This document shows, one piece after another, positions 24,981 to 57,247 of a stretch of 64,000 bases of DNA. The notes beneath the pieces are model-generated. The model did not search any database, was not told the DNA's origin, and saw nothing but the letters and a program-made list of their open reading frames with translations. The position numbers and the translations under genes are program-made. Origin of the DNA: Alphaproteobacteria bacterium (lineage in GTDB: Bacteria > Pseudomonadota > Alphaproteobacteria > Kiloniellales > DSM-21159); NCBI GenBank assembly GCA_030433005.1, contig JAUILQ010000006.1, positions 62,001 through 126,000 of the forward strand, written 5' to 3'. Numbering within the stretch: position 1 is the first letter of the stretch; each line of letters begins with the position of its first letter.

Positions 24981-24994
24981 CTGATCTGGATCAA
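24981..24994. promoter_or_regulatory. FNR/FixK-type palindrome, imperfect
   Basis: CTGATCTGGATCAA matches TTGAT-N4-ATCAA except for the first base. It lies in the divergent region, about 107 bases before the MFS start and 68 before the first oxygenase. Confidence 0.4.
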
Positions 24995-31753: not shown

Positions 31754-34486
31754 TTATCGCGAAGCGGTCGACCGCCGCCGGAAGGCCAGCCGCATCTGCT
31801 TCTCGGTCTCGATCAGCACGAAGAACAGGACGCCGACGGCGACGAGCAGCAGCCCGTCCGCCAGCGGCACGGCGCGGGTGCCGAAGACCGCCTGGAGCGG
31901 CGGCAGGTAGGTGATCGCGAACTGAGCCGCCGTGACCGCGACCACGCAGACCCAGACGACCCTCGTACCCTTCGCCGCGGACCAGGTCAGCGAGGTGCCG
32001 TGGATGTTGCGGATGAAGAAGAGGTGGAAGATCTCCAGCACCACGAGCATGTTCATCGCCAGGGTCTGGGCGAGGGCCGGCTCGTAGCCGCGGTCGACGG
32101 CGTAGGCGTAGATGCCGAAGACGGCGGCCAGGAAGAGCCCCGAGACCAGGACGATGTGCCAGACCAGCGAACCCGTCAGCAGCGGCTCGTCGCGCGGCCG
32201 CGGCGGGCGCCGCATGGTGCCGCGCTCCGAAGGCTCGAAGGCCAGTGCGAGTCCCAGCGTGACCGCCGTGATCAGGTTGATCCAGAGGATCTGGACCGCG
32301 GTGATCGGCAAGGCGAGGCCCGCGAGCAGCGCCACCACGATGGTCAGCGCCTCGCCCGCGTTGGTCGGCAGGGTCCAGCTGATCACCTTCTTGATGTTGT
32401 CGTAGACCGTTCGTCCCTCGCGCACGGCCGCCACGATCGAGGCGAAGTTGTCGTCGGCGAGCACGAACTCGGCGGCCTCCTTGGCCGCCTCGCTGCCCTT
32501 GCGGCCCATCGCGATCCCGGCGTCGGCGCGCTTGAGCGCCGGCGCGTCGTTGACGCCGTCGCCGGTCATCGCGACCGTCAGCCCGCGCGACTGGAGCGCG
32601 GTCACGAGGCGCAGCTTGTGGGCCGGCGAGGTGCGCGCGAAGACGTCGGTCCGGACGGCGGCCTCGGCGAGGGCGGCCTCGTCCATCGCCTCGAGGTCGG
32701 CGCCGGTCAGCACCCGGTCGCTGTTCTCCAGTCCGATCAGCCCGGCGATCGCCCGGGCGGTCGCCGCGTGGTCGCCGGTGATCATCTTCACCCGGATCCC
32801 CGCGGCGCGGCATTCGGCGACCGCCTCGACCGCCTCGCTGCGCGGCGGGTCGATCAGGCCGACCAGGCCGACCAGGGTGAGGCGCCCGTCCAGGTCGCTG
32901 GCGTTCAGGATGGTATGTCGCTGCGGCACGGCGCGCGCGGCGATCGCGATGACCCGCTGCCCGTCGCCGGCAAGCCGCTCCACCGTCTCGTGCCAGGCCG
33001 CCGCGTCGAGCGGCTCGGTCCCGCCATCGGCCGCGCGCTGGTCGGCACAGAGGGCGAGCACCGCCTCCGGGGCGCCTTTGACGTGGATGCGGGCGTGGCC
33101 CTCGTGGTCGTGGTGCAGCACCGCCATGTAGCGGTGCGCGGCATCGAAGGGGATCGCGTCGCTGCGGCTCCAGTCGCGGAACGGCTCCGGCCCCGCGCCG
33201 GTGATCTTGCCGGCGAGCGCGAGCAGCGCGCCCTCCATCGGGTCGCCCTCGACGCGCCAGCCGTCCACGGGACCGTGCAGCACGGCGTCGTTGCACAGCG
33301 CCGCCGCGCGGGCGAACTCCGAGAGCACGGCATGCTCGTCGGGCCGGGCGTCCGCCTCGCGCCAGCGCACCGCGCCTTCCGGTGCGTAGCCGTCGCCGCC
33401 GACGGAGTAGACGCGGCCGACCGCGGCGAGCGTTGCCGCCACCATCTCGTTGCGGGTCAGCGTGCCGGTCTTGTCGGAGCAGATCACCGACACCGAGCCC
33501 AGGGTCTCGATCGCCGGCAGGCGGCGGACGATGGCGTTGCGCCGCGCCATGGCCTGGACGCCGACCGCCAGGGTGATCGTCAGGACCGCGGGCAGGCCCT
33601 CGGGGATCGCCGCGACCGAGAGGCCGACGACCGCCATGAAGAGCTCGGCGAAGGCCAGATGCCCGACGAAGTAGCCGTAGCCGAGGATCGCCCCGGCGAC
33701 GAGCAGGATGAACGCGGTCAGCCAGCGCGCGAAGCCGTCCATCTGCTCGACCAGCGGCGTCGTCAGCGTGCGGACCTCCGCCAGCAGCCCGCTGATCCGG
33801 CCGATCTGCGTCGCCGCGCCGGTCGCCGCCACGACGCCGCGCCCGGCCCCGGCCGCGACGAGCGTGCCGCTGAACAGCATCGGACTGCGGTCGCCCAGCG
33901 CGGCTTCCGCCGCGACCGGCGCGGTGCCCTTGTCGACCGGCACCGACTCGCCGGTCAGGATCGCTTCCTCGGCCTTCAGGCCGCGCGCCTCCAGCAGCCG
34001 CAGGTCCGCCGGCACGCGGTCGCCGGCCTCGATCAGCACGATGTCGCCCGGCACCAGTTCGGCGGCGTCGACGCTGACCCGCCGTCCGTCGCGCAGGACC
34101 GCGGAGCGCGGCGCCAGCATCACCCGGATCGCCGCCATGGCCTGCTCGGCCCGTCCCTCCTGCACGAAGCTGATGACGGCGTTGACGATCACCACCGCCA
34201 GGATCACGCCCGTGTCGATCCAGTGCTGCAGGGCCGCCGTCACTGCCGCCGAGGCGATCAGCACGTAGATCAGCACGTTGTTGAAATGGCCGAGGAAGCG
34301 CAGCAGGAGGCTGCGCCTCGGCGGCTCCGGCAGGCGGTTCGGTCCGTGCTGCGTCAGGCGGCGCGCGGCTTCCTGCGCGCCCAGGCCGTCGCGCGTCGCC
34401 CGCAGGCGCGCCAGCGCGGCCTCGAGCGGCAGGCTGTGGAAGGCCTCGTCGGGCACAGCTTCGGTCGGGCGCTCGCTCTCGGTCAT
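31754..34486 (-). CDS. P-type cation-transporting ATPase (P2 type)
   Basis: A 910-residue P-type ATPase with the full domain order: N-terminal cation ATPase domain (PLEAALARLRATRDGLGAQEA), actuator TGES in AILTGESVPVDKG, M4 motif VAAIPEGLPAVLT, phosphorylated Asp338 in CSDKTGTLTRNE, hinge TGDGVNDAPALKRADAGIAMG, and a six-helix C-terminus. PEGLP places it in the SERCA-like P2 group. M6 reads WINLITAVTLGLALAFEP, where calcium pumps have NLVTDGLPA, so the key M6 aspartate is missing and the ion is uncertain. An FNR-type box lies upstream. Confidence 0.92.
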   Translation of the reverse strand: MTESERPTEAVPDEAFHSLPLEAALARLRATRDGLGAQEAARRLTQHGPNRLPEPPRRSLLLRFLGHFNNVLIYVLIASAAVTAALQHWIDTGVILAVVIVNAVISFVQEGRAEQAMAAIRVMLAPRSAVLRDGRRVSVDAAELVPGDIVLIEAGDRVPADLRLLEARGLKAEEAILTGESVPVDKGTAPVAAEAALGDRSPMLFSGTLVAAGAGRGVVAATGAATQIGRISGLLAEVRTLTTPLVEQMDGFARWLTAFILLVAGAILGYGYFVGHLAFAELFMAVVGLSVAAIPEGLPAVLTITLAVGVQAMARRNAIVRRLPAIETLGSVSVICSDKTGTLTRNEMVAATLAAVGRVYSVGGDGYAPEGAVRWREADARPDEHAVLSEFARAAALCNDAVLHGPVDGWRVEGDPMEGALLALAGKITGAGPEPFRDWSRSDAIPFDAAHRYMAVLHHDHEGHARIHVKGAPEAVLALCADQRAADGGTEPLDAAAWHETVERLAGDGQRVIAIAARAVPQRHTILNASDLDGRLTLVGLVGLIDPPRSEAVEAVAECRAAGIRVKMITGDHAATARAIAGLIGLENSDRVLTGADLEAMDEAALAEAAVRTDVFARTSPAHKLRLVTALQSRGLTVAMTGDGVNDAPALKRADAGIAMGRKGSEAAKEAAEFVLADDNFASIVAAVREGRTVYDNIKKVISWTLPTNAGEALTIVVALLAGLALPITAVQILWINLITAVTLGLALAFEPSERGTMRRPPRPRDEPLLTGSLVWHIVLVSGLFLAAVFGIYAYAVDRGYEPALAQTLAMNMLVVLEIFHLFFIRNIHGTSLTWSAAKGTRVVWVCVVAVTAAQFAITYLPPLQAVFGTRAVPLADGLLLVAVGVLFFVLIETEKQMRLAFRRRSTASR

Positions 34487-34609
34487 GGCGATCTGCGGGC
34501 AGGTGTCGCGGGCTCGTGACGCCTGCGGTTCCTCCGTGGCTGCCGGCGCCCCTCCAGAGGGGCTCGTCCGCATGGTCGGCGCAGCATGGCGACGCACGCT
34601 CGAACCGCC

Positions 34610-34623
34610 TTGACCCAGGTCAA
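34610..34623. promoter_or_regulatory. FNR/FixK-type box between ATPase and methyltransferase genes
   Basis: TTGACCCAGGTCAA is a symmetric TTGAC-N4-GTCAA site, extended by C and G to a 16-base palindrome. It lies midway in the 251-base divergent region, about 115-125 bases from each start. CRP/FNR-family regulators such as FNR, FixK or Dnr use this type of site. Confidence 0.6.
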
Positions 34624-34737
34624 GGGCGCCCCCGGTCCGTTGCTGCGCCGGCCGCGGGAATCGCCACCTGCCCGAAGCCGTTCTTCGGGACGGCTTCTCG
34701 AGGTCGGGCCAGGCTCGTGCAAGAGGGAGAACAGGCG

Positions 34738-35724
34738 ATGGTGAGTTCCGATCGGATCGACAGGATGATCGCGGCGGTGCCTCCGGCCCTGGCGCTTCGG
34801 GCCGGGCTCGAGCTCGGGCTTTTCACGGCGATCGGCGACTCCGAGCTGAGCGCCGACGACCTCGGGGCCGCGCTCGAGCTCGATCCCGACCGCCTGTCGC
34901 GGCTGCTCTACGCGCTGGCCAGCATCGGACTCCTCGAGGTCCGGGCGGGGCGCTTTCGCAACGGCGCCGAAGCGTTGGCCTTTCTCGATGCGTCCAAGCC
35001 GACCTATCGCGGCGGCGATCATGCGCTGCTGCGCGAACTCTGGGAGGCCGACCTGCTGACCGCCGAGTCGCTGCGGCAGAACCGGCCGGCAGCGCTGCAC
35101 GACTTCGCCGCGGCCGGACCCGAAGCCGCGGCGGCCTTCAGCCGCAGGCTGGCGCCCGGTGCGCTCGTCTTCGGGCGGCAGCTGGCCGAGGCGCTGGATC
35201 TCTCCGCGATCCGCTCGGTGATCGACATCGGCGGCGGCCCGGGGACCATTCTGGTCGGCCTCCGCGAGCGCTGGCCGCGGCTTGCCGCGACCTTGATGGA
35301 GCTGCCGACGGTCGCGGCCGTCGCGCCGGAGATCCTGGCGGCGTACGGCGCCCACGACGTCGCGGTCGAGGCGGGGGACATAACCGCCGCACCGTCGAGC
35401 GGTCGGCATGACCTCGCGATCCTGAAGGCCGTCGTCCAGGTTCTGCCGCCGGACCAGGCGCGCCGCTCGATCCTGAACGCGGCGCGCTCGCTCGCCGCCG
35501 GGGGCGAGATCGTCGTTGCCGGGTGGGGCGTCGTCGACGACGACCGTCTCGGACCCCGCGAGGGCGTCTTCCTGAATCTGACCTTCCTGAACCTCTATCT
35601 CCACGGCGAAGCGTACACGGAGAGCCAGTATCGCGCGTGGCTGACCGAGGCCGGATTTCGACGCATCGCCCGGTCGCGCCTGGCGGACGGCTGCACCGTG
35701 TTTCGCGCGCGCCTCGAGAGCTGA
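34738..35724 (+). CDS. SAM-dependent O-methyltransferase-like protein
   Basis: A 328-residue protein like plant and bacterial O-methyltransferases (acetylserotonin or hydroxyneurosporene methyltransferase type). A dimerisation/winged-helix N-terminus (ALRAGLELGLFTAIGDSELSADDLGAAL) precedes a Rossmann domain with motif I VIDIGGGPGTILVGL, motif II-like TLMELPTVA, and LNLYLHGEAYTESQYRAWLTEAGF at the C-terminus. Catalytic His of the family is not clear. GAGGGAGAAC precedes the ATG. Divergent from the P-type ATPase, sharing the FNR-type site. Confidence 0.85.
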   Translation: MVSSDRIDRMIAAVPPALALRAGLELGLFTAIGDSELSADDLGAALELDPDRLSRLLYALASIGLLEVRAGRFRNGAEALAFLDASKPTYRGGDHALLRELWEADLLTAESLRQNRPAALHDFAAAGPEAAAAFSRRLAPGALVFGRQLAEALDLSAIRSVIDIGGGPGTILVGLRERWPRLAATLMELPTVAAVAPEILAAYGAHDVAVEAGDITAAPSSGRHDLAILKAVVQVLPPDQARRSILNAARSLAAGGEIVVAGWGVVDDDRLGPREGVFLNLTFLNLYLHGEAYTESQYRAWLTEAGFRRIARSRLADGCTVFRARLES

Positions 35725-35759
35725 CGACAGCTGCGTCGGCGGGACGGGCTCCCCAGGAC

Positions 35760-37490
35760 TCACGATGCCGAGCGCTCCTCCGTGTCGATGGCGGGTATCT
35801 CGGTGCGCTCCTGCTCGGAGGCGCCGCGCAGCAGTTCGACCGCGCGGTCGGCAGCATCCTGGAAGGGCTCCAGCACGAGATCGGCGCCCGCGGCGAGCAG
35901 CTCCTCGGTATCGCGCGCCTGGTGCGAGGACACGGCGATGCGGCCGCGAAAGCCCGCGCTGCGGGTCAGCTGGATGAGTGTCGCGCGCGCGTCCTCGTGG
36001 CTCAGCCCGGTCGGATGGATCGGCACCGTCGAGACGATCGACTGGGCGCGCGTCAGCGGGAGCTCGGCCACGAACTCCGGGTCGGTCGCGTCGCCGAACT
36101 CGGCCGCGAGGCCCAGCTCGCGCCAGCGCCGCACCGCAAGCGGGTTGAAGTCGACGCCGAGCACCCGGATTCCAAGCTTCTGAAGGCGCAGGCCGATCGC
36201 CGTGCCGAAGCGTCCGAGCCCGAAGACGATCACCGCATACGCGCCGTCCCGATGGGCCACGGCGTCGCTCGGCTCGCGCGGCGTGCCGCGGCGTTCGAAG
36301 ACGCCGAGCAGCGGCTCGAAGGCCGCGTAGAGCCGATGCGAATAGGTGATCATGTAGGTGGAGGCGGCGATCGTCACGAGGCCGACCAGGGTGACCAGCC
36401 CGAGCGACTCCTCGCCCAGATGGCCGAGCGACACCCCCATGGCCACGAAGATCAGCGAGAACTCGCTGATCTGAGCGACCGTGAGGCCGGCGAGGAACCC
36501 GGTCCGCTTGCGGTAGCCGAGCGCACCCATGATCGCCAGGACGATCAGCGGATTGCCGATCAGCACGAACAGCGAGAACACCACGGCGGCGGCTACGTTT
36601 GCGCCGAGCAGGGACAGGTCGAGCGTCGCGCCGAGGGCGATGAAGAAGAACAGCAGCAGGAAGTCCCGCAGCGGCGCGAGACGCGCCGCGATGGTCTCGC
36701 GGTAGGGCGTCGAGGCGAGCGAGACGCCTGCGAGCAGGCCGCCGACCTCCTTGCCGAGTCCGACGGCGTCGCCGATCGCGGCGAACAGGGCGGCCTGCGC
36801 GATGGCGAAGATGACCAGCAGTTCCGGCGCGCGGGCCAGGCGCTCGGTCAGCGGGCTGGCGACGTAGCGCACGAAGAGGACGACCAGCGCGACCAGGGCG
36901 ACGGCGGAGGCGATGACCGACAGCACCGAGCCGCCGCCGTGCCCGGCCTCGCCGCCGGCCGACGCGCCGATGCCGATCGCCGAGAGCACGACCATGGCCA
37001 GCACCACCACGAGGTCCTGGACGATCAGGAAGCCGAGCGCGATCTGGCCGTGCAGCGAGTCGATCTCGCGCTTGTCGGACAGCAGCTTCACGATGATGAT
37101 CGTCGAGGAAAAGGTGAGCGCCACGGCGACGTAGAGACTGGTGACATGCCCGAGGCCGAGCGCCAGGCCGATCAGGTAGCCGAACACGGAGGTGAAGAGC
37201 ACCTGGCCGAGGCCGGTCATCAGCGCGACCCGGCCGAGCGACCGGATCAGCTTGACGTCGAGCTTGATGCCGACGAGGAACAGCAGCACGGCGATGCCCA
37301 GCTCCGAGAGCAGGTCGATCTGCTCGTCGGATCGCACCACGTCGAGCGCCGACGGCCCGGCGAGCAGGCCGACGGCGATGAAGCCGACGATCAGCGGCTG
37401 CCTGAGCAGGAGACCCAGCAGCCCGATGCACGCCGCCATGACGAGCAGGATCGCGACTTCGGCGAAGGGCGTGTGGATCAGCGCCTCCAT
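35760..37490 (-). CDS. Kef-type cation/proton antiporter with TrkA-N domain
   Basis: A 576-residue CPA2 antiporter. About twelve membrane helices (residues 8-390) contain PLIVGFIAVGLLAGPSALD, SELGIAVLLFLVGIKLDVKLI, SSTIIIVKLLSDKREID and the DLVVVLAMV stretch. A cytosolic NAD-binding TrkA-N domain follows (AVIVFGLGRFGTAIGLRLQKLGIRVLGVDFNP). It resembles YbaL/KefB and probably exports potassium in exchange for protons. The ATG at 37490 directly precedes the first helix. Divergent from the universal stress gene. Confidence 0.92.
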   Translation of the reverse strand: MEALIHTPFAEVAILLVMAACIGLLGLLLRQPLIVGFIAVGLLAGPSALDVVRSDEQIDLLSELGIAVLLFLVGIKLDVKLIRSLGRVALMTGLGQVLFTSVFGYLIGLALGLGHVTSLYVAVALTFSSTIIIVKLLSDKREIDSLHGQIALGFLIVQDLVVVLAMVVLSAIGIGASAGGEAGHGGGSVLSVIASAVALVALVVLFVRYVASPLTERLARAPELLVIFAIAQAALFAAIGDAVGLGKEVGGLLAGVSLASTPYRETIAARLAPLRDFLLLFFFIALGATLDLSLLGANVAAAVVFSLFVLIGNPLIVLAIMGALGYRKRTGFLAGLTVAQISEFSLIFVAMGVSLGHLGEESLGLVTLVGLVTIAASTYMITYSHRLYAAFEPLLGVFERRGTPREPSDAVAHRDGAYAVIVFGLGRFGTAIGLRLQKLGIRVLGVDFNPLAVRRWRELGLAAEFGDATDPEFVAELPLTRAQSIVSTVPIHPTGLSHEDARATLIQLTRSAGFRGRIAVSSHQARDTEELLAAGADLVLEPFQDAADRAVELLRGASEQERTEIPAIDTEERSAS

Positions 37491-37643
37491 ACGGACACCC
37501 CGCGGCCGCGCCCGCCGGCCTTCCTGACGCTCCGAGATCGATCGCTCGCCATCGGCGGATGCCCCTTGCCCGTCCCTGCCGGAAATCGGTTCCGCGACGC
37601 AGGGTATCAAGGCGCAAGGGTACCGAGGCGCAGGGGATGCTCG

Positions 37644-37657
37644 TTGATTCTCCTCAA
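37644..37657. promoter_or_regulatory. FNR/FixK-type box upstream of universal stress gene
   Basis: TTGATTCTCCTCAA fits TTGAT-N4-ATCAA with one mismatch in the right arm. It ends 60 bases before the universal stress protein start, in the divergent region to the Kef-type antiporter. Confidence 0.5.
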
Positions 37658-37717
37658 GGCGGGCGCAGTTTCTCCGTGTTCGGCTGACACCCGGGGCGCA
37701 ACGGCAGGAGGGGCGCG

Positions 37718-38581
37718 ATGAAGACCATCATGGTGGCCACCGATTTCTCCGAGCGCTCGGATCGCGCGCTCCGCCGGGCGACGCTGCTCGCGAGGCATGT
37801 CGGCGCCGGTCTGGACCTGGTCCACGTCGTCGACGACGACCAGCCAGAACGCATCGTCGAGAGCGAACGCGAGGCCGCCGGGCGGCTGCTCGGCGAGCAG
37901 GCCGCCACGCTGCGGGGCGTGGACGGCGTGAGCTGCAAGACCCAAGTCGTGCTCGCCGATCCCTTCGCCGGCATCGTGCAGGCCACGCGCGACCGCGAGC
38001 CGGACCTGCTGGTCATCGGCCCCCACCGGCGACAGCTGCTGCGCGACGCCTTCGTCGGCACGACCGCCGAGCGCACGATCCGCTCGGTCTCCTGTCCGGT
38101 CCTGATGGCCAACGCTCCGCCGGCCGGCGCCTACCGCCAGGTCCTGCTGACCACGGACCTGTCGGACGGCTCGCGCGCCGCCGTCGAGGCCTTCGCCGCG
38201 CTCGGCATCGCGCCCAAGGCCTCGGCCTCGATCCTCTACGTCTTCGACGTGCCGCTGCTCGGGCTGGCCATGGGGCAGTCGGTCTCGACGAGCGAGCGCG
38301 AGCGGGTCCTCGACCGGGAACGGCAGGAGGCGGAACGCCAGCTCGCCGGCTTCATGGCGCCCTACCCCGCCGATCTCGCCGAGGCCATCGTACGACCCGA
38401 CGTGTCCGGCCCGGCGAACGAGATCCTGGCGGCAGCGACCGACAACGAGGCCGGTCTGGTCGTCGTCGGGACCCGTGGACGGAGCGGGCTCGCCAGGCTG
38501 ATTCTCGGCAGCGTCGCGGAGGAGGTGCTGAGGAACGCGCGCCTCGACGTGCTGGCGGTGCCACCGAGGCGCGACGCGTGA
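37718..38581 (+). CDS. Universal stress protein, two UspA domains
   Basis: A 287-residue protein with two Usp domains, residues 1-140 and 142-284. The second keeps the ATP-binding pattern G-2x-G-9x-G-S (GTRGRSGLARLILGSVAEEV). The first has lost it (GPHRRQLLRDAFVGTTAE), so the two halves probably differ in nucleotide binding. Double-domain Usp proteins respond to oxygen limitation and stasis in many bacteria. The upstream FNR-type site and the neighbouring antiporter and ATPase support a stress role. Confidence 0.93.
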   Translation: MKTIMVATDFSERSDRALRRATLLARHVGAGLDLVHVVDDDQPERIVESEREAAGRLLGEQAATLRGVDGVSCKTQVVLADPFAGIVQATRDREPDLLVIGPHRRQLLRDAFVGTTAERTIRSVSCPVLMANAPPAGAYRQVLLTTDLSDGSRAAVEAFAALGIAPKASASILYVFDVPLLGLAMGQSVSTSERERVLDRERQEAERQLAGFMAPYPADLAEAIVRPDVSGPANEILAAATDNEAGLVVVGTRGRSGLARLILGSVAEEVLRNARLDVLAVPPRRDA

Positions 38582-54776: not shown

Positions 54777-54790
54777 TTGAGGCAGATCAA
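54777..54790. promoter_or_regulatory. FNR/FixK-type box upstream of phasin gene
   Basis: TTGAGGCAGATCAA fits TTGA-N6-TCAA with full symmetry of the four-base arms. It ends 125 bases before the phasin start and could equally serve the divergent CsbD-like gene. Confidence 0.55.
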
Positions 54791-54915: not shown

Positions 54916-55329
54916 ATGGCCAAGCAACAGCCCCGCAAGACCGACGGTGGCGGCCTTTCCGAGACCGCCGTCCCAACCCCCGGCTTCGAGTTCTTCATGG
55001 CCGAGGGACTCGCAGAGGCGGCGCAGAGCTGTGCCCGCACCGGTTTCGCCGTGCAGGAGGAGATGCTTCGCTTCACGGCGCGGCGCTGGGAGGAGGACCT
55101 GCGCCTGCCGCTGGCGCTCGCCGGCTGCCAGTCGTTCGGCGACCTGCTGTCGGTCCAGCAGAAGTGGCTGGACACCGCCTTCCAGGACTACGCCGAGGAG
55201 GGCGAGCGGCTGGCCCGGCTGGCGGGCGGCGCCGTGCGCGACACCGGCGACCGGCTGGCCGGCGGCACCGCCGGAGCTGCCGAGGCCTCGGCCCGCCTGG
55301 TCGAGGAGAGCGGGCAGCTCGTCGAGTAG
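54916..55329 (+). CDS. Phasin-like polyhydroxyalkanoate granule protein
   Basis: A 137-residue amphipathic, helical protein. The phasin pattern is AAQSCARTGFAVQEEMLRFTARRWEEDL, LALAGCQSFGDLLSVQQKWLDTAFQDYAEEGERLARLAG. Phasins coat PHA granules in the cytoplasm. A good ribosome site (AAGGAGG) precedes the ATG, and an FNR-type box upstream suggests oxygen-dependent expression, fitting the link between carbon storage and low oxygen. Confidence 0.75.
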   Translation: MAKQQPRKTDGGGLSETAVPTPGFEFFMAEGLAEAAQSCARTGFAVQEEMLRFTARRWEEDLRLPLALAGCQSFGDLLSVQQKWLDTAFQDYAEEGERLARLAGGAVRDTGDRLAGGTAGAAEASARLVEESGQLVE

Positions 55330-55438: not shown

Positions 55439-57247
55439 TCAGGCCGCCTTCATCTCGCCGAGGAAGCGGGTAACGGCGGACTGCAGCGTCTTGGTGTGAC
55501 CGCTGAGGTCGCGCACCGCTTCCAGCACCTGCCCCGCCGCCGCGCTGTTGGCGTCGGCGCCGCGGTTCAGGCCGTCGAGGGCCTCGCTGACCTGCTGCGT
55601 GCCGCTGGCGGTTTCCTGGACGTTGCGGGCGATCTCGTCGGTCGCCACGGTCTGCTCCTCGACGGCCGCGGCGATCGAGCCGGCGATGCCGTTGAGCCCC
55701 TCGACCGTCTTGGCGATCTCCTCGATCGCGCCGACGGCGCCGCCGGTCGCGTTCTGGATCTCGCCGATCTGCTGGGCGATCTCCTCGGTCGCCTTGGCGG
55801 TCTGGGTCGCCAGCGACTTGACCTCGGAAGCGACGACGGCGAAGCCCTTGCCGGCCTCGCCGGCGCGCGCCGCCTCGATCGTCGCGTTGAGCGCCAGCAG
55901 GTTGGTCTGCTCGGCGATGTCGGAGATCAGGTTGACGACCTGGCCGATGCGCTCGGCGGCCTGAGCCAGCTGCTGCACCGTCTGGCGCGTGTCGCCGGCC
56001 TGGCCGACCGCCTGCTCCGACATGCTCGAGGACTGCTGGACCTGGCGGGCGATCTCCTGGATCGAGCCGGACAGCTCCTCGGCCGCGGTCGCCACGGTCT
56101 GCACGTTCGAGGAGGCCTGGGTCGCCGCCGAGGCGGCGCCGCTCGCCCGTTCGCGGGTTTCCTCGGCCTGCGCGGACATGGAATCGGCCGTGCCGTTGAG
56201 GGTCGTGCTCGCCTGGTTGACACCGCTCAACACGCCGCCGACGGCTTCCTCGAAGCGCCCGGTCAGTTCCTGAAGAGCCTTGGCACGCTGCGTCGCCTGC
56301 TGCTCGGCCTCGGCCTGCTGCTCCTGCAAGCGCGCGTTCTCGACCATCGACTGGCGGAAGACCTGGACGGTGCCGGCCATCTCGCCGACCTCGTCGCCGC
56401 GCCAGGTCTCGGGGATCTCCCGGCTGGTGTCGTTGTCGGCCAGCGACAGCATCGCGCCGCGCAGGCGGCCGAGCGGCGCCAGCACGCGGCGGAACATGCC
56501 GACCGCGGCGACCGCGATGAGCAGGACGAGCACGGCCAGGGTGCCGCTGAAGATCCAGGCGACGGTGGCGACGCGCTGCTGCGCGGCCTCGACCGCCGCG
56601 GCCGTGCGGCGGTCGAGCAGCACGAAGAACTCGTCGATCGGCTTCATGATCTCCGCCTTGAAGCGGAAATAGTCGTCGCCGAACATCAGCGCCCGCGCCT
56701 TGTCCAGGTCCGGCTCGCCGGTCACGCTGTAGCTGCCGTCGGCGCCCTTGAACTTGCCCTGAACGGCGTGCATCGCCTCGGTCTCGAGGGCGACCAGGCC
56801 GTCGGAGTTGCGCTGCGCCGCCTCCAGCTTGGCGAACTCCTGCTCGGTGAAGCCGGCCGCGGTCATCAGCGCGTTGAGCGAGACCGCCCGCGTGCCGGGA
56901 CGCGGCGGCTGCCCGGAGGCGGCGACGAAGTCCCAGTAGATGCGGTTGTAGCCCTCGGGACGCGGCTTCTCGCCGTTGCGGATCGCCAGCACGTCCCAGT
57001 ACATCCCGGCGAACGTCTCGTCGCCGGTCGAGACGTAGCTGCGCGCCAGGTTTGTCAGGTCGTCCGAGCTCTGGCGCAGCTCGTCGGCCAGAAGGTAGGA
57101 ATCGTAGCGCTTTTCGAAGGCCTCCTGCAGGTCGGCCTGGGCCTGCTGGTAGAGGAACCAGAGGCCGAGCAGCGCGGCGGTGCAGGCGATCATGGCACCG
57201 ACGACGAAGACGGTGCCGCCGCGGATGGTCCTGGCAATCCCGGGCAT
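55439..57247 (-). CDS. Methyl-accepting chemotaxis protein
   Basis: A 602-residue chemoreceptor. The first membrane helix is [21 protein letters not shown] (about residues 12-32); a helical periplasmic domain of about 190 residues follows; the second helix is about 232-256 ([21 protein letters not shown]); then HAMP and the signalling domain with [35 protein letters not shown]-type hairpin tip. The sensor is a four-helix-bundle type; ligand unknown. No che genes are nearby. Confidence 0.93.

Follow-up and report, generated by a model that had tools for sequence, protein, structure and literature searches.

A putative FNR-type site between divergent P-type ATPase and O-methyltransferase genes in an alphaproteobacterium

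Described FNR regulons and their relation to this locus

The FnrL/FNR regulons described in the alphaproteobacteria R. sphaeroides, R. capsulatus, and D. shibae are organized around a 14-bp site (PMC2908626, PMC4634722, PMC5398030; these papers, like the others cited here, were available in part). The core regulon of alphaproteobacterial FNR includes FNR itself and UspA, and the R. sphaeroides FnrL sites mapped by ChIP include those at ccoNOQP, uspA, fnrL, and ccpA (PMC2908626). In D. shibae, Usp genes and ccpA are activated directly by FnrL (PMC5398030), and direct activation of uspA has been described in R. capsulatus, R. sphaeroides, and E. coli (PMC4634722). The published FNR core also holds a P-type ATPase, the heavy-metal type RSP0690, distinct from the one discussed below. 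In P. aeruginosa, where the FNR-type regulator is Anr, the cation-transporting P-type ATPase PA1429 and Usp proteins are among the anaerobiosis-linked genes, PA1429 carrying a 'U' in the relevant table (PMC8575079) and being tabulated again in PMC8087004; the likeness to the present case is one of description.

The genome studied here has in common with the alphaproteobacterial regulons the 14-bp site, the kind of regulator, a box at the regulator's own gene, and targets at ccoN, usp, and a cytochrome c peroxidase gene. It differs in the small number of its strict sites, 11 in 5.3 Mb, and the ATPase and methyltransferase genes considered below are absent from the published FnrL/FNR targets compared, as given in the available parts of those papers. 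The kind of control is known, and the gene arrangement is slightly unusual. A literature search on FnrL, kefB, universal stress protein, and cation-transporting found no paper joining three of these four terms. For a cluster of uncharacterised stress genes in an alphaproteobacterium, encoding a KefB-type antiporter, a universal stress protein (Usp), a phasin, and a type IIA-like ATPase lacking the customary aspartate in M6, both a sensor and a signal can now be proposed.

The box and its divergent genes

The window, by which we mean the whole 64,000-nucleotide stretch analysed, contains at 34610..34623 (no strand) a putative FNR-type box, TTGACCCAGGTCAA, located by pattern search and matrix score between divergent genes for a P-type ATPase (31754..34486, minus strand) and an O-methyltransferase (34738..35724, plus strand). 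The initial annotation had called this palindrome fully symmetric, but although TTGACC mirrors GGTCAA, the central CA breaks the symmetry, leaving only 12 of 14 positions symmetric. Its placement between two divergent genes was described correctly, the centre lying about 130 bp from the ATPase start codon and 121 bp from that of the methyltransferase. At seven of the nine other intergenic strict sites of the genome a start codon is found within 61-88 bp, compared with 121-130 bp for TTGACCCAGGTCAA, which weighs against the reading favoured below.

The box conforms to the 14-bp dyad TTGAY-N4-RTCAA by which FNR-type sites are defined here; it stands upstream of genes, and sites of this kind also occur at other low-oxygen genes of the genome. 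Scored with a matrix built from 24 of 28 listed R. sphaeroides FnrL ChIP sites (PMC2908626), the four weakest-looking having been omitted, it reaches 22.1 bits, the top match of the window. This value falls inside the 18.7-27.1 bits spanned by the 24 ChIP sites themselves, and 0.025 matches at this level are expected per 64 kb.

The ATPase (type IIA-like, 910 aa) reaches the cut-off of no specific NCBIfam ATPase model. Its M6 segment has Ala in place of the calcium-pump Asp (Asp800 in SERCA); among 80 ATPase homologues this position is occupied by Ala in 69, Gly in seven, Thr in four, and Asp in none. The methyltransferase (Methyltransf_2 plus a dimerisation domain, 328 aa) is encoded between kefB and the ATPase gene, with an ATG at 34738 assigned by sequence reading where the gene caller gave 34765. 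Beyond it lie genes for a KefB/CPA2-type cation:proton antiporter with a TrkA-N domain (35760..37490, minus strand) and a universal stress protein with two Usp stretches (37718..38581, plus strand).

Other features of the intergenic DNA were also considered. No sigma-70 consensus promoter was found in the region, a result of little weight at about 73% GC. A perfect hairpin with an 8-bp stem occupies 34674-34697 in the methyltransferase leader. RNA structure in the leaders was rejected as a candidate feature, z-scores of 0.01 and 0.12 indicating no more stability than in shuffles, and Rfam gave no match in 33400-38000 at E values up to 1. A mirrored promoter was likewise discarded: inverted arms do surround the box, but the alignment of the flanks was matched by 427 of 2000 shuffles, and shuffles commonly yield 26-nt arms as good as the best pair here (17 matches).

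Candidate regulators encoded in the genome

Seventeen proteins of the genome match HTH_Crp_2. Four of these are Crp/Fnr proteins, the same four that were recovered in a search with the genome's own FNR as query, and the other 13 are by eye of GntR, Lrp, DeoR, ArsR, and IscR types. One of the four is an FNR encoded outside the window (G000:C9, about 42.8-43.5 kb) with cNMP_binding and HTH_Crp_2 domains. It carries a CX2CX7C motif near the N-terminus and a distal Cys in THSALCRF, the four cysteines expected of a [4Fe-4S] protein; three of them align with those of solved FNR, and the third N-terminal Cys is two residues out of register. The X7 spacing is usual in alphaproteobacteria. Alignment with solved FNR and FixK2 shows the E--SR pattern in its recognition helix, TTETVSR. 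Among NCBIfam models FnrL matches the protein best (E 4.5e-51), but its 173.5 bits fall below the 300-bit cut-off, and the protein is therefore described as FNR-type and not classed as an FnrL equivalog. This fnr gene is itself preceded, at about 120 bp, by a strict box.

FNR, FixK, and DNR have a helix Glu and Arg in common and a near-identical target, and NnrR differs at the Glu (PMC2908626). Reading of the box by another Crp/Fnr regulator, of FixK or Dnr/NnrR type and responding through FixLJ or to nitric oxide, must therefore be weighed, the more so as one of the four proteins (C105) is encoded beside norB, nnrS, and a pseudoazurin gene and as the assembly may lack 6% of the genome. The helix of the norB-linked protein, however, is TLHTVSR and lacks the Glu that reads TTGA, and those of the two remaining proteins are AVHVNR. 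From the published Glu/Arg rule and these four helices, the C9 protein is the only expected reader of TTGA. A protein of FixK type, in the sense of an E--SR helix without one or more of the cysteines, is absent from the four Crp/Fnr proteins of this 94% complete genome; all other HTH_Crp_2 matches fall by eye in different families; and the fnr gene itself carries a strict box. Taken together, these points make another reader very improbable. Nitric oxide, offered in the initial annotation as an alternative signal alongside oxygen, is not supported, and neither is FixK as the reader; oxygen is, because the C9 protein, with four cysteines of the oxygen-labile [4Fe-4S] type, is the only one of the four whose helix fits the box.

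Near the norB-linked regulator, TTGC-N6-GCAA palindromes are found instead (L048, positions 5735 and 7528), upstream of the Crp/Fnr gene/pseudoazurin pair and of norB. These are candidate sites of a separate nitric-oxide regulon.

The reading we favour, and hold with good confidence, is that TTGACCCAGGTCAA is a site for the genome's own FnrL-like FNR and places the divergent ATPase and methyltransferase genes under low-oxygen control. A drop in oxygen would lead FNR to acquire its [4Fe-4S] cluster, form a dimer, and bind TTGACCCAGGTCAA, and the bound protein would then alter transcription of both genes. The ATPase would most likely be activated, joining the cbb3 oxidase, Usp, and cytochrome c peroxidase in a response to low oxygen and energy stress.

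Enrichment of FNR-type sites over chance

In the window, TTGA-N6-TCAA occurs four times where 0.10 occurrences are expected, a number reached in none of 100 shuffles; across spacings from N0 to N15, N6 accounts for four matches and all other spacings combined for one. The genome-wide scan proposed with the initial annotation bore out the enrichment. In the 5.30 Mb searched (94% complete, 116 contigs), there are 28 loose TTGA-N6-TCAA sites compared with 13 for the reversed motif, eight at N5, and four at N7, and 11 strict TTGAY-N4-RTCAA sites compared with two in the control. Of 58 genomes searched, this one included, 57 have more strict sites than sites of the reversed control; the remaining one has 12 vs 13. 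According to our own gene calls, which are weak in low-GC contigs, intergenic DNA contains 10 of the 11 strict sites and 24 of the 28 loose ones, compared with none of the 13 reversed-motif sites; two of the loose sites so scored (L217, L052) sit where few genes were called. Wrong-spacing sites (N5 and N7) are also mostly intergenic (9/12). The position bias is thus partly compositional, and site number is better evidence than site position.

Chance origin can be rejected for the set of sites on the basis of shuffles, the reversed motif, and other spacings, though not strictly for a single site. TTGACCCAGGTCAA might be a fortuitous or unused match beside an ATPase and a methyltransferase that are not oxygen-regulated. 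The intergenic tendency of the wrong-spacing pairs, the control counts (which make some of the 28 sites background), and the scarcity of boxes among the closest ATPases are all consistent with such a reading. They are opposed by the rank of TTGACCCAGGTCAA at the top of the window's scores, by the excess of strict sites, and by the recurrence of boxes upstream of ATPase homologues, and we judge an accidental match unlikely. The assignment of an FNR-type site at 34610-34623, as initially put forward, finds support both in the genome-wide enrichment and in the encoded four-cysteine FNR.

Ten of the 11 strict sites adjoin genes, some of whose names were assigned by eye, and one is intragenic. The intergenic sites lie next to ccoN of the cbb3 oxidase operon, the fnr gene, a usp gene, a di-haem cytochrome c peroxidase gene (CCP_MauG), a hemerythrin gene, genes for a YgaP-like membrane protein and a chemotaxis receptor, an aldolase/TRAP-protein pair, a carA/yqeY pair, and the ATPase/methyltransferase pair of the window. 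The earlier inclusion of usp among the FNR-type sites of this genome is borne out by this list. The site at the chemotaxis receptor, a perfect TTGATCTAGATCAA at L043 5001-5014, stands 360 bp upstream of the gene and may indicate low-oxygen taxis.

The same 14-mer as TTGACCCAGGTCAA was found in two relatives among the matches listed. One copy precedes a formate/nitrite transporter gene by about 75 bp; the other, in a member of the same family as the source genome, separates a histidine kinase gene from the gene of a small membrane protein. Homologues of that kinase (56% identity) and membrane protein (43%) in the source genome flank TTGAGCCAGGTCAA, such that FNR-like boxes (L051 4001-4014 and L240 2757-2770) occupy the matching intergenic place in two genomes of one family.

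Gene order and box conservation in relatives

A set of 80 named related loci, defined by ATPases of 67-84% identity, was compared with the window (tblastn E 1e-8, flanks of up to 5 kb). In 13 of these, kefB immediately precedes the ATPase gene on the same strand, and in six of the 13 a divergent usp gene follows beyond. These usp/kefB-ATPase loci, mainly from Rhodobacterales and Hyphomicrobiales, contain the same three genes as the window and the same divergent orientation of usp. They differ in the methyltransferase, which was found within the limits of this search in none of the 80 loci. The best non-self match to it in 58 related genomes has an E value of 5e-25 and 28% identity, and only six of 385 genomes of the class, its own included, have a match at E 1e-30, the best other being 46% identical. 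Because it is missing from the 80 loci and rare in the class, the methyltransferase gene is most likely an insertion between kefB and the ATPase gene. It would thereby split an apparently older kefB-ATPase unit, its position between the two genes producing the divergent promoter region in which the box sits. Nine of the 80 loci carry a small HTH gene with no relative among the genes called in the window; its product is about 79 aa long and excisionase-like by eye, and in L108 (3011-3226) the gene lies between usp and kefB.

Box frequency upstream of the ATPase varies with gene order. Of 89 ATPase loci without kefB immediately before the gene, 31 are preceded within 600 bp by a box matching at least nine of 10 positions, nine of these boxes being perfect, whereas 11 scrambled motifs gave 0-6 boxes (0-1 perfect) in the same loci. 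None of the 13 ATPases directly behind kefB has one, counting L184, whose kefB gene stops some 1,150 bp short of the ATPase. For this count, seven of 109 loci were removed for having an upstream 40-mer in common with an earlier locus, and seven of the 31 boxes are not independent, since they take the same TTGTC form in related Rhizobiaceae. As such ATPase genes outside kefB units often carry FNR boxes, the sequences suggest that ion homeostasis may belong to the low-oxygen response.

Conservation of the ATPase box is nonetheless partial. A box of at least nine positions within 400 bp is present in only four of the 38 closest ATPases (77-84% identity) compared with 14 of 42 at 67-76%, that is, in 18 of all 80 loci and not in the other 62. 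The exact 14-mer TTGACCCAGGTCAA was found upstream of no other ATPase locus fetched. A box at 31 of 89 loci but only four of the 38 closest ATPases implies gain and loss over time. In the relative L096 a strict box separates the ATPase gene from a divergent usp gene, and the same holds for L100, where usp is 1.2 kb further on.

Within FNR control of the locus, the box may serve the ATPase alone, with the methyltransferase a passenger transcribed from an unrelated promoter. Many of the ATPase homologues carry their own boxes, and five distant methyltransferase homologues have no upstream box of at least nine of 10 positions, which lends no support to an old link between methyltransferase and box; the rarity of the methyltransferase points the same way. 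The near-equal distance of the box from both start codons argues for joint control, and we consider the matter evenly balanced. On either version of FNR control, the box would provide the ATPase with a low-oxygen promoter of its own. A more far-reaching scenario, which we regard as tentative and rather doubtful, is regulon rewiring by insertion, in which the methyltransferase brought or created the FNR-controlled divergent promoter on splitting the usp/kefB-ATPase unit, bringing the ATPase under direct FNR control and joining an O-methyltransferase to the low-oxygen response.

Other boxes in the window

The four best matrix matches of the window, at 34610, 24981 (21.9 bits), 54777 (20.4 bits), and 37644 (16.8 bits), are all intergenic, and the next 11 listed score at most 14.4 bits and lie within genes. 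Boxes similar to TTGACCCAGGTCAA at the usp and phasin genes, as had been claimed, are present, but each agrees with the consensus at only nine of 10 positions. The usp box, TTGATTCTCCTCAA (37644..37657, no strand), is in register in four of seven usp/kefB regions, the window included; in three of the six relatives it stands about 65 bp upstream of usp, and the other three are without it. The phasin box, TTGAGGCAGATCAA (54777..54790, no strand), lies between a CsbD-like gene (minus strand) and the gene for a phasin-like protein (54916..55329, plus strand; Phasin_2 24.2 bits, slightly below the 24.9 cut-off) and is known from this genome alone. With this distribution, and with no methyltransferase found in any of the 80 related loci, the inclusion of methylation and storage among the functions of the regulon is unproven.

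The second-best match of the window was overlooked in the initial annotation. This FNR-like box, CTGATCTGGATCAA (24981..24994, no strand), is situated between genes for an MFS transporter (minus strand) and a 2OG-Fe(II) oxygenase (plus strand), and its initial C is permitted by the R. capsulatus consensus (T/C/A)TGA-N6-TCAA (PMC4634722). The fourth TTGA-N6-TCAA match of the window, at 56217, falls inside a chemotaxis-receptor gene.
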